NCBI RefSeq assembly: GCF_024346135.1
Contig: NZ_JAGQCJ010000003.1
Location: forward strand, 124,001-188,000
Reading direction: 5' to 3'
Length of the DNA stretch: 64,000 nucleotides
Source of the DNA: Cyanobium sp. CH-040
Lineage (GTDB): Bacteria; Cyanobacteriota; Cyanobacteriia; PCC-6307; Cyanobiaceae
The notes beneath the pieces are model-generated. The model did not search any database. It saw only the letters and a list, made by a program, of their open reading frames with translations, and was not told the DNA's origin. Below are positions 29,795 to 37,878 of the stretch, piece after piece. Both the position numbers and the translations under genes were made by a program. Within the stretch, counting starts at the first letter, position 1. Every line of letters starts with the position of its first letter.

Positions 29795-31663
29795 TCAGAC
29801 CGGGGCTTCCGTGCCTTCGGCCCTGTGGGTGATGGCGCCACCCAGCGCGAAGGCGGCGTGCACCGCCTGCAGGGCGCGCACGCCGTCGCCTTCGGCCAGC
29901 ACGCAGCTGGTGCGGATCTCGCTGGTGGCGATCATCTCGATGTTGATCCCCGCTTCCGCCAGGCAGCGGAACATGCGCGCCGCCGTGCCCGGGGTGCAGG
30001 GCATGCCGGCGCCGACGGCGCTGACGCGGGCGATGGCCGGACCCTCCTCGAAGCGCGAGCCCGGCCACTGGCGCAGCACCGGTGCCAGGGCCCGCTCGGC
30101 CCGGGTGCGCTCGTCACGCTTGAGGGTGAAGCTGATGTCGCGGCTGAGCTGGCTTCCCTCGCCGTGGGTGCGCTCCGACTGCACGATCGCATCGAGGCTG
30201 ATGCCCGCATCGGCCAGGGCGCGGCAGACGGCGGCGGCGGTGCCGGGACGATCGGGCACCCGGCGCACGGCCACCTGGGCCTGGTCGCGGTCCAGGGCCA
30301 CGCCGCGCACCGGCGGGGCCTCCAGCCGGCAGAGCTCGGGGTTGTGCTGCAGCTGGCTCTCGTGCAGCTCGAAGGCCTCGGCGGCGGCCCGCAGGGCCCG
30401 CTGGCCCTGCTCGCCGGCCACCAGGCAGCTCACCTTCACCTCGCTGGTGGCGATCAGGCGCACGTTGATGCCGCAGCGGGCCAGGGTGTCGAACAGGCGG
30501 GCGGCCACCCCCGGACGGCCCATGATGCCGGCGCCGGAGATGCTCAGCTTGGCCAGGCCGCCCTCCCCCCGCAGGCAGGCCCCGCCGTCGACGCCATCCG
30601 CCAGCTGCTCCACCGGCTCGGCGCCCATGCCGATCAGCACCTCCCGGCTCACCAGCAGGGCCTGGTCGAGGTCCGTTTCCGGCAGGGTGAAGGCGATGTC
30701 GTTGGTGTAGCCGTCCCCGCCGCGGCCGCTGCCCTCGTGGGTGGCCTGCACGATCAGGTCCACGTTCAGGCCGGCGGCGCCCAGCGCCTCGAACAGCTGG
30801 GCGGCCACTCCGGGCCGGTCGGGCACGTGGGAGAGGGCCACCACGGCCTGGTGGGTCTCGAGCTGGGCGCCGTCCACGGGCTTGCCCAGCTCCAGGCCGC
30901 CGCTGCCGATCGCCTGGGGCGCGCCGCTGGTGAGCCGGGTGCCCGGGGCCTCGCTCCAGCTGGAGCGCACCACCAGGGGCACGCCGTAGTTGCGGGCGAT
31001 CTCCACCGCCCGCGGATGCAGCACGGCGGCCCCGAGGCTGGCCAGCTCCAGCATCTCGTCGCAGGTCACCGTCTCCAGGAACTGGGCATCGGCCACCTTG
31101 CGCGGGTCGGTGGTGAGCACCCCGGGCACATCGGTGTAGATCTCGCAGGCCTCGGCGCCGAGGGCCGCCGCCAGGGCCACGGCCGAGGTGTCGGAGCCGC
31201 CGCGGCCCAGGGTGGTGATCTCCGGGGTGCCGGCGGCGCCGCTGCTGGTGCCCTGGAAGCCGGCCACCACCACCACCTGGCCGTCGTCGAGCAGGCGCCG
31301 CAGCCGTTCGGTGCGGATCTCCAGGATGCGGGCCCGGCCGTGGGCCGACTCGGTGACGATGCCCGCCTGGGTGCCGGTCATCGACACGGCCGGCACCCCC
31401 AGGGCGTGCAGGGCCATGGACAGCAGCGCGATCGACACCTGCTCACCGGTGGAGAGGAGCATGTCCATCTCGCGCTGGGGCGGGTCGCTGCAGATCGCCC
31501 GCGCCAGGCCGGTGAGCTCGTCGGTGGTGTGGCCCATGGCCGACACCACGATCACCAGTTCGTGGCCCTCTTCCCGGCAGTGGGCGATGCGCCGGGCCAC
31601 CGCCTGGATGCGCTCCACGTCGGCCACCGAGGTGCCCCCGAACTTCTGAACCAGCAGGGCCAT
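29795..31663 (-). CDS. lysC: Aspartate kinase with duplicated ACT domain pairs
   Basis: The enzyme phosphorylates aspartate, the step before asd. The N-terminus MALLVQKFGGTSVADVERI fixes the start at 31663. The kinase domain has TLGRGGSDTSAVALAAALGA. The C-terminal half contains four ACT units in two pairs (VALSHVPDRPGVAAQLFEAL, ISGAGIMGRPGVAARLF, AVRRVPDRPGTAAAVCRAL and ISAVGAGMPCTPGTAARMF-like), giving 622 residues. This duplication is characteristic of cyanobacterial aspartate kinases and implies end-product feedback control. Confidence 0.95.
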   Translation of the reverse strand: MALLVQKFGGTSVADVERIQAVARRIAHCREEGHELVIVVSAMGHTTDELTGLARAICSDPPQREMDMLLSTGEQVSIALLSMALHALGVPAVSMTGTQAGIVTESAHGRARILEIRTERLRRLLDDGQVVVVAGFQGTSSGAAGTPEITTLGRGGSDTSAVALAAALGAEACEIYTDVPGVLTTDPRKVADAQFLETVTCDEMLELASLGAAVLHPRAVEIARNYGVPLVVRSSWSEAPGTRLTSGAPQAIGSGGLELGKPVDGAQLETHQAVVALSHVPDRPGVAAQLFEALGAAGLNVDLIVQATHEGSGRGGDGYTNDIAFTLPETDLDQALLVSREVLIGMGAEPVEQLADGVDGGACLRGEGGLAKLSISGAGIMGRPGVAARLFDTLARCGINVRLIATSEVKVSCLVAGEQGQRALRAAAEAFELHESQLQHNPELCRLEAPPVRGVALDRDQAQVAVRRVPDRPGTAAAVCRALADAGISLDAIVQSERTHGEGSQLSRDISFTLKRDERTRAERALAPVLRQWPGSRFEEGPAIARVSAVGAGMPCTPGTAARMFRCLAEAGINIEMIATSEIRTSCVLAEGDGVRALQAVHAAFALGGAITHRAEGTEAPV

Positions 31664-31718
31664 GGCACCGGGACCGCGCCCCCGCGGTCTGCACATCGAT
31701 CGCAGCGATTATCTGCCC

Positions 31719-32735
31719 TCACCCCGCGCCGGCGGTGCCCAGCAGGAAGCCGTCGCGGAAGGCGGCGCCGGGATCGGCGCCGCGCTTGAGCTGGACCTCC
31801 ACCTCCAACAGCTGGCCCAGCAGTCCCAGGAACCGCTCCGGCTGGCGGCCGCGGATCTGGCGGCGCAGCACGTAGACGCGCTTGGGGTTGCCGATGCCGG
31901 CGGCCTGGGCGATGGCAGTCACGTCCTGCTCCCCCTGGCGATCGAGCAGGGCCACCCACAGCCAGCCGCGGATCTGGCCGCTGAGGGTGGCGACGATGCG
32001 CAGCGCCGGCTCCCCGGACGCCAGCAGTGCGTCGAGCAGGGCGATGGCCTCGGCCGGCCGCCCCGCCAGCAGGGCATCCCCCACCGCCAGGGCGGTGGTG
32101 CTGTGGCCGCCCACCAGGGCCTGCACCGCCGCCGCGGTGATCGCCGGTGCTGTGCCCGCCGGGGGGGCGGCCTCGGCGGCGGCGAACAGGCTGAGTTTCT
32201 CCAGCTCGCTGGCCAGGCGGGCGCTGTCGCTGCCGATCGCCTCGGCCAGGGCCTCGGCGGCGGCCGGCTCCAGCGCCAGCCCCAGCTCGCGGGCGGTGCG
32301 GGCCACCAGGTCCACCTGTCCGGCCTCGTCCCACACCGCCGGCAGCGGGAAGCTGCGCTCGCTGGCCTGGCCCGCCTTGACCAGCTTCTGCAGGGCCTTG
32401 GTGGTGCGCAGGCGGCCGTCCGGCTTGGCCGGGTTGACCAGCAGCAGATGGCAGCTCTCGGGGATCAGCTCCAGCGCCGCCTCCAGCTGGTCGGCCAGCT
32501 CCGCCGGGCACTGGTTGCAGAAGGGACTGCGCTGCAGCGCCACCACCCGGGCGCCGGCCCCGAAGGGCGGCGTGCGCGCCTCCTCCAGGGCCCGGGCCGC
32601 CTGGTCGGGGTCGTTGCCGTCCAGGCGGCTGAGGTTGATGGCGGCCCAGGCCGGATCCACCAGCTCAGCGATCAGGGCCTCCACCGCCCGGCCGCGGGCC
32701 GCTTCGTCGTCGCCCCAGAGCAGGTGGATGGGCAT
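31719..32735 (-). CDS. holA: DNA polymerase III delta subunit (clamp-loader wrench)
   Basis: The 338-residue protein starts MPIHLLWGDDEAARGRAVE and has the degenerate AAA+ fold of HolA, with NPAKPDGRLRTTKALQKLV and AIGSDSARLASELEKLSLFA as conserved blocks and a C-terminal collar region (VYVLRRQIRGRQPERFLGLL). Its ATG shares one base with the stop of the upstream Phd-PIN fusion (TGATG), so it is translationally coupled to that accessory gene. Its partner gamma/tau is dnaX at 13.8 kb. Confidence 0.9.
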   Translation of the reverse strand: MPIHLLWGDDEAARGRAVEALIAELVDPAWAAINLSRLDGNDPDQAARALEEARTPPFGAGARVVALQRSPFCNQCPAELADQLEAALELIPESCHLLLVNPAKPDGRLRTTKALQKLVKAGQASERSFPLPAVWDEAGQVDLVARTARELGLALEPAAAEALAEAIGSDSARLASELEKLSLFAAAEAAPPAGTAPAITAAAVQALVGGHSTTALAVGDALLAGRPAEAIALLDALLASGEPALRIVATLSGQIRGWLWVALLDRQGEQDVTAIAQAAGIGNPKRVYVLRRQIRGRQPERFLGLLGQLLEVEVQLKRGADPGAAFRDGFLLGTAGAG

Positions 32736-33472
32736 CAGACGCTGGGCACCACGGGCAGGTCGAGGGCGGGCAGCAGGGCCCGGCCGTGCAGCAGCTCCGC
32801 ATCGTCGCTCACCAGCACCGCCGCTCCGGCCTGGATGGCCGCGGCCAGTTCCAGGGCGGCCCCGGCGCTGAGGTGGCCCCCGCATGGCTGGGTTCCGGAT
32901 GGCTGGGTCGCCCATGGCTGGGTCGCCCGTAGACGGGGCCGGCGCAGGCGGGCGGCGGCCTCGGCGACGGCCCCATCCACCGCCATCACCTGCCAGGCCT
33001 GGCCGTCGGCGAACACCTGGCGGTAGCTCTGGGCCCGGCCCTCGTGGCCCCGGCTGAGGGGCCCCTCCAGCAGCCGCATCAGGCAGAGGCTGCTGATCTG
33101 CCCGCGCCAGATTCCCCGGCCGATGCCCTCCAGCAGCTGGGTGAGCAGCCCGCCCTTGTCGGCTGCACCGCTGAGAAAGGCGATCAGCGCCGAGGCCTCG
33201 AAGCCGATCAGGGCCCCATGGGCCAGCTGGTGAGGGTCAAACGGGCTCCCGGAGGCCGAAGGGACTGCTGCCGAATCCGGCCAGTATCCGCGGCCACTGC
33301 CGCGCAGCTCCAGCAGCCGCCGGCGCTGGGGCACCTGCCGCTGGTAGAGCGGGACCAGGGCCGCCACAGGCTGGCCGTGACGGTTGATCACCAGCTGCTC
33401 GCCGGCCTCGGCCCGGCTGAGCAGCTCGGGCAGGCGCCGCCTGGCCTCCTGCACCCCCAGGGACTCGGTCAT
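32735..33472 (-). CDS. Phd/YefM antitoxin-PIN domain fusion protein
   Basis: The 245-residue protein joins an antitoxin and a toxin domain that are normally separate. Residues 1-50 are Phd/YefM-like (VQEARRRLPELLSRAEAGEQ, then LVINRHGQPVAALVPL). A linker of about 35 residues follows, then a PIN-like domain (ALIGFEASALIAFLSG, SSLCLMRLLEGPL, LSAGAALELAAAI, VLVSDDAELL). The usual first aspartate of PIN is Glu (FEAS in place of LDTS) and the usual aspartate of the DALHLA-type box is Ala, so nuclease activity is doubtful. A 5-residue repeat (ATQPW/ATQPS/GTQPC) interrupts the PIN part. The gene overlaps the holA start by one base. The start at 33472 directly precedes the Phd fold. Confidence 0.75.
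   Translation of the reverse strand: MTESLGVQEARRRLPELLSRAEAGEQLVINRHGQPVAALVPLYQRQVPQRRRLLELRGSGRGYWPDSAAVPSASGSPFDPHQLAHGALIGFEASALIAFLSGAADKGGLLTQLLEGIGRGIWRGQISSLCLMRLLEGPLSRGHEGRAQSYRQVFADGQAWQVMAVDGAVAEAAARLRRPRLRATQPWATQPSGTQPCGGHLSAGAALELAAAIQAGAAVLVSDDAELLHGRALLPALDLPVVPSV
32884..32928. repeat. 15-bp tandem repeat inside the Phd-PIN gene
   Basis: ATGGCTGGGTCGCCC occurs exactly twice, at 32899-32913 and 32914-32928, and a degenerate third copy (ATGGCTGGGTTCCGG) precedes them at 32884-32898. In the protein this adds 5-residue units without breaking the frame. Confidence 0.9.
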
Positions 33473-33506
33473 CGGCGCAGCGGTGAGGGTGGTGCGGGCT
33501 GTTCCA

Positions 33507-33529
33507 ATTCTGTACACGCTGTACAGAAT
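33507..33529. promoter_or_regulatory. Perfect 23-bp palindrome upstream of the Phd-PIN gene
   Basis: The arms ATTCTGTACA and TGTACAGAAT are exact inverted copies around CGC. The site ends 35 bp upstream of the Phd-PIN start codon, a position fitting autoregulation by a Phd-type repressor, and it lies in the divergent spacer before cobH. A closely related palindrome occurs at 37430-37460. The spacing does not fit the cyanobacterial LexA box (one base too long) or NtcA (one base too short). Confidence 0.7.
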
Positions 33530-33684
33530 CAGGATCCGGCTTCAACGCGATTCGGCCGGAGCGCGATCCGGTCGTCACAGGGTCGGGCTGAAACCTGAGC
33601 TGCAACCGGGCCGAAACTGGTGCTGAAACAGGGCGTCGGTTGCCCGGATCCGCCAGGCGACGCCACTGCCACCCCCCTTTCCGC

Positions 33685-34413
33685 TTGGACCCACTGCCTG
33701 ACCACCGGTTCGACCATCCGATCTTCAGCGAGAGCATCGTTCTGATCCGGCAGCTGCTGGCGGATCAGGCCCGCGGCGATGCCCACCTGGCGCGGACGCT
33801 GGCGGGGCTGGATGGCCAGGAGCGCGATGTGCTGGAGCGCTGCGTGCACAGCAGCGGCGATCCGGCGATCGCGGCCGATCTCGGCTTCACCCCGCAGGCC
33901 TGCGCGGCCGGGGTGGCGGCGCTGCGGGCCGGGGCGCCGATCCTCACCGACACGGCCATGGCCGCGGCGGCGGTGGCGCCGATGGCGGGGCGCACCTTCG
34001 CCAACCGGGTGGCGTGCGCCCTGGCCTGGGCCCCGGCGCAGGCGCCCGCGGGCTCCACGCGCGCGGCGGCCGGCATGGCGGCGGCCCTCGCGGAGCTGGG
34101 TGCCGGCGGCAGAGGTGCCGGGACGCCGGCCGTCGCGCCGGTGGTGCTGATCGGCAGCGCCCCCACCGCCCTGGAGGTGCTGCTGGAGCGGGTGGCGGCC
34201 GGCGCGGTGGAGGCCCCGGCCCTGGTGATCGGCATGCCGGTGGGATTCGTGGGGGTGGAGCAGAGCAAGCGCCGCCTGGCGGCGAGTGGCCTGGCCCACA
34301 TCCGGCTCGAGGGCTCCAAGGGCGGAGCCGGTCTGGTGGCCGCGGCCTGCAACGCCCTGCTGCGGGCCGGCTGGCTTCAGGCGGCGAGCGCCCCGTCCCC
34401 CTTCTCCGGCTGA
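33685..34413 (+). CDS. cobH: Precorrin-8X methylmutase (cobalt-precorrin-8 methylmutase)
   Basis: The enzyme moves a methyl group from C11 to C12 to give (cobalt-)hydrogenobyrinate in B12 synthesis. [18 protein letters not shown] opens the conserved domain, the catalytic histidine is in [11 protein letters not shown] near residue 55, and [15 protein letters not shown]-like and [19 protein letters not shown] close it. There is no ATG near the start: TTG at 33685 is the closest to the domain, and TTG at 33640 is an alternative. Its 3' end overlaps the convergent mutS by 37 bp. Confidence 0.92.
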
Positions 34414-37283
34414 CCGAGGCTGATCTGGCTGTTGGCCTCGATGCGGCCCAGCACCTGGCGGGCGCGCAGCACCACCGGCGCCGGCACGCCGGCCAGGCGG
34501 GCTGCCTCGATGCCGTAGCTGCGGCTGGCGCCGCCGGGCACCACGCGGTGCAGGAAGCGCAGGTCGTGGCCGGTCTCCTCCACCAGCACCCGGGCGTTGG
34601 CGACGTTGGGCAGCACGGCGGCCAGTTCGTTGAGCTCGTGGTAGTGGGTGGCGAACACGCAGCGGGCGCCGATGGCGGTGGCCAGGTGCTCGGCCACCGC
34701 CCAGGCGATCGAGAGGCCGTCGAAGGTGGCGGTGCCGCGGCCGATCTCGTCGAGCAGCACCAGGGAGCGGGCCGTGGCGTGGTGAAGGATGTTGGCCGTC
34801 TCGGCCATCTCCACCATGAAGGTGGACTGGCCGGCGGCCAGGTCGTCGCCGGCGCCGACGCGGGTGAAGATGCGGTCGGCGATGCCGAGGCGGGCGGACG
34901 CCGCCGGGATCCAGCTGCCCATCTGGGCCAGCAGCTGCAGCAGGCCGTTCTGGCGCAGGTAGCAGCTCTTGCCGCTGGCGTTGGGGCCGGTGAGGATCAG
35001 CAGGTCGGGGGCCCCCCCGGTGTCACTGCTGCTTCCCAGGGCGATGCCGTTGGCGGTGAAGCCCTCCTCCACCAGCAGCTGCTCCACCACCGGGTGGCGG
35101 CCGGCCTCGATCTGCAGCACGCGGGCGTCGGCGCCGCCGGGGTCGGTGATCTCCGGGCAGCAGTAGCCGCCGGTGGCGGCCACCTCGGCCAGGCCGGCGA
35201 GGGCATCGAGTTCGGCCACCAGCCGGGCCGCCGTGCGGATCGCCGCGGCCTGCTCGCCGACGCGGCCGCGCAGGGCGCAGAACAGCTCGTATTCGCGCTG
35301 GGCGGCGCGGGCCCGCAGCTGCTGGATGCGGCCCTCGCGGGCCTTGAGCTCGGGGGTGACGAAGCGCTCCTCGTTGGCCAGGGTCTGGCGGCGGATCCAG
35401 TGCTCAGGCACGGCGCCGGCCTTGGCCCGGCTCACCGCCAGGAAGTAGCCGAAGGTGCGGTGGTACTGCAGCCGCAGGGTGCTGATGCCGCTGAGCCGGC
35501 GCTCGTCGGCCTCCTGGCCGGCCAGCCAGGCGTCCTGGTCGTCGAGCTGGTTGCGCAGGCCGTCGAGCTGGGCGTCGACGCCGTCGTGGATCAGGCCGCC
35601 CTCGCTCAGGGCCAGGGGCGGACTCTCCACCAGGGTGTGGCGCAGGTGTGCGGCCAGCGCCTCGAGCTCCGGCCAGGGGCGGGCCAGGGCCTGCAGCGGT
35701 GCGCTGGTGGCGCCGGCCAGCAGGGCGGCCAGCTGGGGGAGGCGCTCGAGGCCGTCGGCCAGGGCCACCAGGTCGCGGGCCGAAGCGCTGCCGGCGCCGG
35801 CCCGGCCGGCGAGACGCTCCAGGTCGCCCATCGGCCGCAGCAGCCGGCGCACCGCCAGGCGCAGGGGACGGGCCGCCACCAGCTCGCTCACACTGCCCTG
35901 GCGCTCGAGGATGGCGGCGCGTTCCACCAGCGGCGCCTCCAGCCAGCGCCGCAGGCAGCGGCCGCCCATGGCCGTGTGGGTGCGGTCGATCGCCCACAGC
36001 AGCGAGCCGTGCAGGCTGCCGCCCAGCTGGGTGCGGGTGAGTTCGAGGTTGCGGCGGGTGGCGGCGTCGAGCACCAGGGCGTCGCCGGCGTGCCAGGTGG
36101 TGGGCAGGTCGAGGGGCACCCGGGGCGGGTCGCCGCTGCCGCCGCCTGCGGAGCTGTTCTGGCTGCCGTACTGGCTGCCGTTCTGGGTACCGTCCAGGTA
36201 GTGCACCAGGCCGCCGGCGGCGCGCAGGGCCAGGGGCACCTCCCCCAGCCCGAGGCCATCGAGGCTGGCCAGGCCGAAGCGCTCCTTGAGGGTGGCGCTG
36301 GCCTCCGGCAGCTCGAAGGGGGTGCGGGGCAGCCGCGTGAGCCGCAGGCCGGCGGGACACCAGGCCGGCGCCGCGGCGGTGTCATGGGGCGCGCCGTCAG
36401 CGCCGCCGCCGGGCCAGAGCACCTCGGCGGCCTCCAGCTGCAGCAGCTCCTGGTGCAGGGCGTCGCTGCCGCGGCGCTCGCTCACCCGGAACTCGCCGGT
36501 GCTCACGTCGGCCACGGCCAGACCCCAGCGGGCCGCCGAGCCCTGGGCGGGGCCGTCCAGCACCACGGCACAGAGCCAGTTGTTGCGGCGGGCGGCGAGC
36601 ATGCCCTCCTCCAGCACCGTGCCGGGGGTGAGCACGCGGGTGATGTCGCGGCGCAGCAGCTCGCCCCGGGCGGGGGTGGTTTCCAGCTGATCGCAGAGGG
36701 CCACGCTGAGGCCGCGGCGCACCAGCTCGCCGCAGTAGCGCTCGGCGGCATGGTGGGGGATGCCGGCCATGGGCACCCGGCCGATCGCCTTGCCGCCCTC
36801 CTTGCCGGTGAGGGTGAGCTCCAGCAGGCGCGAGACGGCGATCGCGTCCTCGAAGAAGCACTCGAAGAAATCCCCCAGCCGGTAGAGCAGCAGCCGCTCG
36901 GGATGCGCCCGTTTGAGCTCCACGTAGTGGCGCAGCATCGGCGTGAGCTGATCCGGCTCCACCAGGCGGTGGTGGTGCCAGGGGGGGAGGTCGGAGTCGG
37001 GGCTGCCGGGGCCGTTGGCGGCGGTTTCGCCGGAGGCTGCGGACGGCGCACCGGACTGGGAGGACGGGCCGGCGGCGGCAGGGCTGGCCTGGCGGCGCCG
37101 GCGGGGGCGGGCGGCGGCATCGGCCGCCAGGGCCTCGGCATCGAGGCCATCGCTGGTGGCGGCTGGTTTTGCCGCGGCTTGCGGGGCGGCGCGGCGCGCC
37201 GGTCCGGGGATGTCGCCGAAGAGGCTGCCCTGCACGGCGGCTTCGGACACGAGCGAAAGCTGCTGCTCGGCTTCCGCGGCCAC
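34377..37283 (-). CDS. mutS: DNA mismatch repair protein MutS
   Basis: MutS binds mismatches and starts repair. After a low-complexity Ala/Pro/Arg-rich leader of about 100 residues comes the mismatch-recognition domain. [16 protein letters not shown] occupies the position of the Phe-x-Glu wedge region. Lever, clamp and ATPase domains follow, with Walker [16 protein letters not shown] near residue 765 and signature [18 protein letters not shown]. The length of 968 residues is above the usual 850-880 because of the leader. The start is GTG at 37283, and a later start inside the leader is possible. A palindrome and tandem arrays lie upstream. Confidence 0.96.
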
Positions 37284-37429: not shown

Positions 37430-37460
37430 TCGAGTTGTGTACAGGCTGTACAGAACTCGA
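37430..37460. promoter_or_regulatory. 31-bp near-perfect palindrome upstream of mutS
   Basis: The arms TCGAGTTGTGTACA and TGTACAGAACTCGA are inverted copies with one mismatch in 14, around GGC. The core TGTACA-xGC-TGTACAGAA is shared in the same orientation with the site at 33507-33529. It lies 147 bp upstream of the mutS start and 230 bp upstream of psbZ. It could be an operator, or a hairpin in a long mutS leader. Confidence 0.65.
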
Positions 37461-37477: not shown

Positions 37478-37566
37478 CCATCGCCATCGCCATCGCCATC
37501 GCCATCGCCACCGCCACCGCCACCGCCACCGCCACCGCCACCGCCACCGCCACCGCCACCGCCACC
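37478..37566. repeat. Hexanucleotide array (CCATCG)5 (CCACCG)9 plus a partial unit
   Basis: Five CCATCG units (37478-37507) pass directly into nine CCACCG units (37508-37561) and a final CCACC. The two homogeneous blocks differ by one base, which is typical of expansion by slippage. It is the longest simple repeat in the window. Confidence 0.97.
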
Positions 37567-37689: not shown

Positions 37690-37878
37690 ATGCAGATCCT
37701 CAACACCCTCACCGTTCTGGCCCTGGTGGTGATGTCGTTCGCCCTGATCGTGGCGGTGCCGGTGCTGTACGCCAGCAGCGAGGACAGCGGCCGTTCCAAC
37801 CGCCTGATCCTGCTGGGCGGCATCGCCTGGCTGGCCCTGGTGCTGGTGAACTGGGGCATGAGCCTGTTCGTGGTCTGA
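37690..37878 (+). CDS. psbZ: Photosystem II protein PsbZ (Ycf9)
   Basis: The 62-residue protein has two membrane helices (TVLALVVMSFALIVAVPVLY and LILLGGIAWLALVLVNWGM) with the loop ASSEDSGRSNR, a typical PsbZ sequence. It is a peripheral core subunit of photosystem II that stabilises antenna contacts. It follows the repeat-rich gap and precedes ribH by 76 bp on the same strand. A mutS-psbZ-ribH neighbourhood is, as I recall, common in picocyanobacteria. Confidence 0.97.
   Translation: MQILNTLTVLALVVMSFALIVAVPVLYASSEDSGRSNRLILLGGIAWLALVLVNWGMSLFVV

Follow-up and report, generated by a model that had tools for sequence, protein, structure and literature searches.

A fused Phd-PIN gene between cobH and holA in Cyanobium and its relatives: a probably domesticated toxin-antitoxin operon

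What becomes of a toxin-antitoxin operon when its two proteins are joined into one? The question is raised by a gene in a 64,000-nucleotide stretch of the Cyanobium sp. CH-040 genome (assembly GCF_024346135.1, contig NZ_JAGQCJ010000003.1, positions 124,001 to 188,000; hereafter the window, to which the unprefixed coordinates below refer), which encodes a Phd/YefM antitoxin domain and a PIN toxin-like domain in a single polypeptide, directly before holA. The original prediction, made from the sequence alone, had offered two roles for this gene: a self-neutralised regulator, or a domesticated protein that sets the translation of a clamp-loader subunit. The evidence presented here, all of it computational, points to a type II toxin-antitoxin operon that has probably been domesticated and now serves as a DNA-binding regulator. 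The fusion, the loss of its catalytic residues and the dyad upstream of it are well supported; that the protein binds DNA and represses transcription, that its PIN domain is inactive, and that it affects holA, mutS and other genes, we infer. The gene and its parts are:

32735–33472, minus strand: fused Phd-PIN gene, a single 245-residue frame with its ATG at 33472 and its stop at 32735–32737
33293–33472, minus strand: Phd/YefM DNA-binding domain, residues 1–60 (Pfam PF02604 and VapB46 fold match)
32738–33223, minus strand: PIN-like domain with altered catalytic positions, residues 84–245 (VapC15 fold match; Pfam PIN in homologues)
33197–33199, minus strand: residue 92, Glu replacing the first catalytic Asp (alignment)
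33074–33076, minus strand: residue 133, Arg replacing the second catalytic Glu (alignment)
32858–32860, minus strand: residue 205, Ala replacing the third catalytic Asp (alignment)
32876–32929, minus strand: repeat-like insert ATQPW/ATQPS/GTQPC within the PIN-like domain, residues 182–199 (alignment, by eye)

Residues 4–42 of the window protein match Pfam PF02604 (Phd/YefM; E=3.9e-8, above the curated cut-off) and residues 5–42 match NCBIfam phd_fam (E=1.1e-8), with PF02604 also found at E<=1 in all 39 aligned fusions. No Pfam PIN match is listed up to E=10 for the window protein alone, HMMER's filters discarding most weak matches, and PF01850 (PIN) is found at E<=1 in 31 of the 39 aligned fused homologues, with a best E of 9.8e-7. 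In an AlphaFold2 model of the window protein, built on the alignment of homologues (pLDDT 86.1, pTM 0.75), residues 88–245 superpose on VapC15 (4chg), the best VapC match, with Z=13.7 and 2.5 Å over 130 residues, and residues 1–43 on the N-terminus of the VapB46 antitoxin (6jqy) with Z=7.8 and 1.2 Å over 43 residues. As modelled, the C-terminal half is a PIN fold. The union of Phd/YefM and PIN in one chain that had been proposed is thus borne out, and a PIN fold is what the model and the homologues return for the C-terminal part, the feature whose absence from an HHpred search had been named as grounds for abandoning the proposal. The repeat-like insert in this domain is shared, in a shorter version, by the closest relative (L002), and was not seen by eye in the other 37 aligned rows.

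The fusion occupies a fixed chromosomal position, bounded by two genes:

31719–32735, minus strand: holA, DNA polymerase III delta, 3' of the fusion in the same presumed operon (Pfam PF06144)
33640–34413, plus strand: cobH/cbiC, precorrin-8X methylmutase, a divergent neighbour marking the insertion site (Pfam PF02570; conserved neighbour), its true start possibly further in than 33640

Among 400 genomes of the family, 51 (counted by hand) bear the gene, defined as a match better than E=1e-11; they include three in which it is broken (G004, G017 and G173). At all 52 loci read from these 51 genomes, G291 having two, cobH stands on one flank and holA on the other. Setting aside three broken copies (L004, L008, L070) and a duplicate of L005 (L073), and counting L007, L061 and L071 as separate pairs, there are 46 unbroken fused frames from 45 genomes, the source genome included. 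These span six genera, and the named relatives that carry the fusion include Cyanobium, Vulcanococcus, Synechococcus lacustris and Aphanothece. Such a survey of holA neighbours had been suggested by the original prediction, and it places the fusion between cobH and holA in 45 genomes. A sequencing error or frameshift as the source of the fusion is ruled out by 46 unbroken frames in 45 assemblies; two-gene homologues do exist, as a distinct and apparently armed form. In 30 further genomes searched, holA was found in 26; four of these (G138, G216, G230, G242) hold remnants of the pair at the cobH-holA site, and in the other 22 the cobH match lies 12–284 bp from holA with no trace of the pair. 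The two loci of G291 (L036 and L058) are different fused copies on separate contigs, each between cobH and holA, and likely reflect a mixture of strains. The broken toxin part of G017 (L008) and holA form a single open PIN-HolA frame of 478 codons.

The fused proteins have lost residues that their unfused relatives keep, the catalytic labels being those we take from general PIN anatomy and transfer by alignment. Three such positions are changed in the window protein, to E92, R133 and A205; the original prediction was right about Asp to Glu at 92 and Asp to Ala at 205, and missed the third change, Glu to Arg at 133. The third catalytic Asp is present in none of the 46 fusions and in all seven separate toxins described below, and the second catalytic Glu in three of the 46 (one more has Asp) against seven of seven. 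The first Asp is kept in 43 fusions and all seven separate toxins, the remaining three fusions, which form the window's clade, having Glu; the fourth Asp is retained in 23 of 46. The Gln three residues past the third Asp is Glu in 44 fusions and Asp in two. The antitoxin half has changed as well: a VDALRxEW-like motif, which would be the toxin-binding part of the antitoxin, lies at the C-terminal end of all seven separate antitoxins and in none of the 46 fusions, searched over residues 50–130. Hence there is probably no toxin left to neutralise, as the third acid is lost in every fusion and the tail motif found in none, and the idea of a self-neutralised regulator is not supported.

The same comparison bears on whether the fusion could be a covalently linked, still armed toxin-antitoxin resembling EzeT, in which the Phd half would restrain an active PIN ribonuclease until cut or degraded. 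It shares with EzeT, as portrayed in the part of the account cited, a single polypeptide with the antitoxin first (PMC4803016). The PIN fold is also predicted to be intact, and 43 of the 46 fusions still have the first Asp. However, with the third Asp lost from all 46, the second Glu from 43 (one of these having Asp), both kept in all seven separate toxins, and the antitoxin tail motif missing throughout, an armed fusion is very improbable.

Both domains of the fusion are nonetheless under purifying selection, as the median dN/dS over 27 hand-picked close pairs is 0.14 for the Phd domain and 0.19 for the PIN-like domain (26 pairs), relative to 0.33 for the linker and 0.12 for holA. The pattern suggests that catalytic function was lost while the folded protein stayed useful, and makes a domesticated protein, the second of the roles first proposed, the likely outcome of losing acids and tail under purifying selection. 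Were the gene instead a decaying toxin-antitoxin remnant, fused by chance and drifting towards loss, broken or remnant copies such as those in seven genomes would be expected, as would the faster evolution of the PIN part in the window's clade and the 22 of 26 further genomes that have cobH and holA and no trace of the pair. Yet 46 frames remain unbroken across six genera, the median dN/dS values of both domains are near that of holA, and the upstream dyad is intact to within one mismatch at 41 of 46 loci, so that decay is an unlikely account.

The separate pairs indicate what may have preceded the fusion. At the cobH-holA site, G011 and G158 have two genes, encoding a Phd antitoxin and a PIN toxin, and G208 has one frame split by a stop into two such parts; in all three the toxin retains the four acids. 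Similar separate pairs occur elsewhere, in Zeimonas arvi and in Myxococcales, Gammaproteobacteria and Alphaproteobacteria assemblies, bringing the separate pairs to seven, of which four are outside the cyanobacteria. In a tree of 53 rows, one branch divides the 46 fused from the seven separate rows (support 100/99, and 100% of 200 bootstrap trees), which, as an unrooted split, fits one fusion event. The rows do not always track genus, as the G006 copy falls among those of genus g68 (with modest support there), and homologous exchange has therefore probably moved the locus. The pair of G011 (L007), separate and apparently armed, lies within the window's own genus and is accompanied by the same palindromes at mutS and in the serS region as in sister genomes; it may be a replacement by exchange. 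A plasmid search gave no match to the L071 antitoxin or toxin, neither a relative of the fusion nor a match to the 19-bp site core turned up in viral contigs, and PADLOC returned no match for the fusion or the L007 pair. No Phd-PIN fusion was noticed in a literature search.

The fusion has also kept what is presumably its operator:

33507–33529, no strand: presumed operator, a perfect inverted repeat ATTCTGTACA-CGC-TGTACAGAAT, with its core at 33511–33525, 38 nt before the start codon

The best TGTACA dyad upstream of the fusions has at most one mismatch and a spacer of three bases at 41 of 46 loci, the other five having two to six mismatches. At all seven separate pairs, including the four outside the cyanobacteria, the best dyad again has a three-base spacer, with zero to three mismatches, as in the TGTACA-ATA-TGTACA of Zeimonas. 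When each fused upstream region was shuffled 20 times, 3 of 920 shuffles reached one mismatch, and 15 other Phd-like hits from the same and related genomes, most of which precede other PIN-like genes, have at least three mismatches (3–5) and mixed spacers. Paired palindromes with TGTACA cores, 12 bp apart, are the binding sites of the YefM and Axe antitoxins, according to the sections cited (PMC7730913, PMC4803016). On this sequence evidence, the upstream TGTACA-N3-TGTACA dyad is presumed to be the cognate operator of the fusion family. A scan of 33300–33800 found no site resembling an intrinsic terminator, and a literature search returned no paper on a cyanobacterial TGTACAG palindrome, the one paper with these terms having an unrelated title. 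The cyanobacterial LexA consensus has a four-base gap between its GTAC cores. A LexA box was set aside as the identity of the palindrome because the gap here is five, and because gene-less sister genomes (G002, G003, G005, G007, G009 and G010) lack the motif.

How might such a protein affect holA? The stop codon of the fusion shares base 32735 (T) with the holA ATG, in a TGATG overlap of one base that the original prediction had read correctly. This overlap recurs at 23 of the 46 fusions, and at the other 23 the gap between the two genes is −16 to +52 nt. At such spacing a separate holA promoter would hardly fit, and holA is therefore probably read from that of the fusion. The overlap had inspired the proposal that the gene sets the translation of the clamp loader; as an evolved translational coupler, it would make HolA synthesis dependent on translation of the fusion. 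The 23 overlapping fusions favour this idea, but the varied spacing of the other 23 does not, and the same one-base overlap is found at separate toxin genes (L007, L071), while TGATG is already present at the start of holA in three gene-less genomes (L186, L190, L193). Translational coupling is accordingly rather improbable, and the more plausible route to control of holA is through a shared promoter and operator.

The most likely history, combining these elements, is as follows. A Phd-type antitoxin gene and a VapC/PIN toxin gene lying between cobH and holA would have fused, probably once. The toxin part would then have lost its catalytic residues (the third acid in every case, the second in almost every one), and a linker would have replaced the presumed toxin-binding tail of the antitoxin. 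The Phd DNA-binding domain and the presumed 15-bp upstream operator would have been retained, along with a folded PIN-like domain that may now help only in assembly on DNA. The fusion protein would most likely repress its own promoter, and so set the transcription of holA. Most gene-bearing genomes also have a few extra copies of the operator, mostly intergenic, as between mutS and psbZ:

37438–37452, no strand: second exact TGTACA-N3-TGTACA dyad, between mutS and psbZ (pattern search)
34377–37283, minus strand: mutS (Pfam MutS domains I–V), its frame start about 154 bp from the second dyad
37690–37878, plus strand: psbZ (Ycf9), on the opposite side of the second dyad from mutS (Pfam PF01737)

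Within the window, three dyads match with at most two mismatches, against 0.23 in shuffles, and the 2.9-Mb source genome has four with at most one mismatch, all of them exact, and none of the reversed pattern. The exact pattern occurs in 46 of the 400 family genomes, in 1–11 copies each, and the reversed control in 13, once each. Of the 51 gene-bearing genomes, 37 have an exact dyad, and 35, compared by hand, have an exact copy beyond the operator; of the 349 other genomes, nine have an exact dyad. These counts use exact cores only, and therefore miss dyads that have drifted. The association recurs within genera (gene-bearing versus other genomes: g1, 6/6 versus 1/7; g6, 15/16 versus 1/26; g68, 9/9 versus 2/7), with a Mantel-Haenszel odds ratio of 22 over four genera; gene-bearing genomes, dyad-bearing genomes and genus tables were all counted by hand. 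The nine dyad-bearing genomes outside the gene-bearing set comprise three with remnants (G138, G230, G242), three assemblies without holA (G188, G280, G332), and three with one exact dyad each and no trace of the gene (G008, G115, G253). A profile, R1, was positive in 43 of 51 gene-bearing and 14 of 349 other genomes (E<=0.01, strict filters), a contingency that is partly by construction, because R1 was built from dyads of genomes that it then found; the 14 include G309 and five marginal cases with E above 0.001 (G075, G099, G117, G216, G276).

The surroundings of these dispersed dyads, with genes called by a codon-score script rather than taken from annotation, are largely intergenic. Of 64 non-redundant sites other than the operator, four lie inside called genes (71% of random positions do) and five at the edges of loci, with 23 between convergent, 25 between tandem and seven between divergent genes. 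Eighteen neighbourhoods recur in at least two genomes (121 sites in 37 genomes, spacers 2 and 3 together), and those at nusB-ftsY, mutS-psbZ and ribH recur across genera. Complementarity between the arms extends beyond the core: over offsets 3–11 at 85 sites there are 380 matches, against 296 ± 13 in within-genus shuffles, none of 2000 being as high; alignment A1 of the dyads leaves out nine of these 85 non-redundant sites. A TGTACA-like dyad precedes the GntR-family gene beside infC, presumably plmA, in nine of the ten g68 genomes with both flanks found (not in G114); five of the nine have a spacer of 3 and four a spacer of 2, with arms re-formed into new complementary pairs. G230, which has a fusion remnant, carries 15 spacer-2 copies and G173, whose fusion lacks the Phd part, 11, while among the matches listed for 15 gene-less or remnant control genomes, which exclude the single match in G216, there was no spacer-2 or spacer-3 dyad. 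No shared discrete mobile element was found at the mutS-psbZ and infC-GntR sites, though intergenic regions are longer where the dyad is present. Runs of T or A beside dispersed dyads were seen by eye in L108 and L112 only.

Several side observations accompany these sites. In G230, part of the spacer-2 set falls, as recurring near-identical palindromes, in a stretch of duplicated genes (L257; G230:C1:1517000-1532000), some of which resemble L119's DUF2887 gene. In G173 (L260; G173:C40:4000-15000) another Phd-like hit, at C40:6787-6888, and a spacer-2 dyad (C40:6949) are some 60 bp apart, and a second Phd protein may therefore use the spacer-2 form. One of the four dyads of the source genome (L078; G000:C1, near 70486) is, by eye, beside a DUF433/DUF5615-like pair next to serS. 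A tandem run of CCATCG/CCACCG at 37485–37565, between the second dyad and psbZ, was not seen in nine aligned relatives. Pfam identifies the neighbours in the window as holA, cobH/cbiC, mutS, psbZ, ribH and an amino-acid kinase with ACT domains; the last of these, aspartate-kinase-like and with several such domains, lies at 29795–31696, downstream of holA.

The dispersed dyads may be a regulon, roadblocks or REP-like palindromes. It is possible, though doubtful, that they are REP-like repeats or RNA or DNA hairpins that share only ancestry or hosts with the fusion and are not acted on by its protein. The arms pairing beyond the consensus point this way, as do the convergent position of 23 of 64 sites, the nearness of 19 of 25 tandem sites to a 3' end, the change of spacer by species with symmetric arms re-made before the GntR-family gene, the persistence of 15 and 11 spacer-2 copies in G230 and G173 despite a broken fusion gene, and sequence that is alike (62–87%) for up to 79 nt around the sites in G279. 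Yet the core is the same as in the dyad upstream of this gene family, also in Proteobacteria and Myxococcota assemblies; exact dyads are almost absent from genomes that have neither the gene nor a remnant of it (the exceptions being G008, G115, G253, G188, G280 and G332); and none of 265 spacer-3 site pairs within genomes has a flank at least 65% alike (offset 15–60, ungapped). As the arms covary, spacers switch and copies persist without an intact gene, the sites may be shaped by hairpin formation, by mutation that perfects the palindromes, or by REP-like spread. More speculatively, the retired module may have turned its operator into a genome-wide system of extragenic palindromes, the dead fusion binding scattered TGTACA dyads as a roadblock, an insulator or a REP-like partner. 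On that tentative view the recurrent intergenic places, often near 3' ends, would be mutS-psbZ, nusB-ftsY, ribH, infC-GntR, mazG and thiC, the arms would be kept complementary, and gene and palindromes would be gained and lost together.

A domesticated DNA-binding regulator remains the likely identity of the fusion, with the following points weighing against it. Firstly, the gene is dispensable, as three genomes (G004, G017, G173) have it in broken form and four (G138, G216, G230, G242) only as a remnant, and the PIN-like dN/dS reaches 0.39–0.64 in three pairs of the window's clade, the highest value resulting from very few changes. Secondly, five of the 46 fused loci have no dyad of at most one mismatch within 130 nt, the mismatches of the separate-pair dyads (0–3) touch the range of the controls (3–5), one of the 15 controls (L022) did not translate as Phd, and a scan near the operator recognised no sigma-70-like promoter. 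Thirdly, the Fisher p-value for the association of gene and exact dyad (4e-32, without correction for kinship) overstates it, because the genomes are related, and in genus g10 the link is not significant (7/16 versus 2/9, p=0.40). Fourthly, G011, with its separate pair, shares two dispersed dyads, at mutS and near serS, with its sister genomes. Finally, 19 of 25 tandem sites lie closer to the 3' end of the gene upstream (49% expected), and an ordinary promoter regulon is weakened by this lean to the 3' ends of genes rather than promoters.

These results outline how a selfish toxin-antitoxin pair may turn into a resident DNA-binding protein, with separate pairs, disarmed fusions, remnants and empty sites directly comparable at one chromosomal position. 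One small protein is also linked to defined extragenic palindromes whose role is the most interesting part of the system. As the presence of gene and palindromes varies between sister species, the function of the palindromes is testable in cultured Cyanobium and Synechococcus.

Among known systems, the closest are the Phd-VapC pairs; PHD-PIN is one of the common toxin-antitoxin combinations in the portion of the survey cited (Makarova et al. 2009, PMC2701414). These pairs have the same domain families, gene order, short overlap and upstream dyad, whereas the fusion is one polypeptide, has lost its catalytic residues and antitoxin tail, and has extra operator copies in the genome. The YefM-YoeB and Axe-Txe operators, so far as the excerpted accounts extend, are likewise paired palindromes with TGTACA cores bound by antitoxins of the Phd/YefM fold, but with centres 12 bp apart rather than the 9 bp of the fusion's dyad, and the partner toxin YoeB belongs to the ParE/RelE superfamily, unlike the PIN domain here. 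EzeT, in the passages cited, also has antitoxin and toxin domains in one chain (PMC4803016, PMC4826407). It is there a zeta-toxin homologue that is harmful once its first 83 residues are removed, whereas the fusion joins Phd to PIN and, judged from sequence, is missing catalytic residues. MqsA differs from the fusion in being a protein apart from its toxin, which is active, and in its DNA-binding fold. It is described, in the extract cited, as a global regulator that binds copies of its operator palindrome elsewhere, as is proposed for the fusion (PMC4894380). REP/REPIN-RAYT systems, in the portions of the literature drawn on, resemble the dispersed dyads in consisting of short extragenic palindromes. 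REP/REPIN elements depend on a single-copy gene. In contrast to the REP/REPIN-RAYT systems, the palindromes described here share no long flanks and are few (1–11 exact spacer-3 copies), and the gene associated with them is a toxin-antitoxin fusion.

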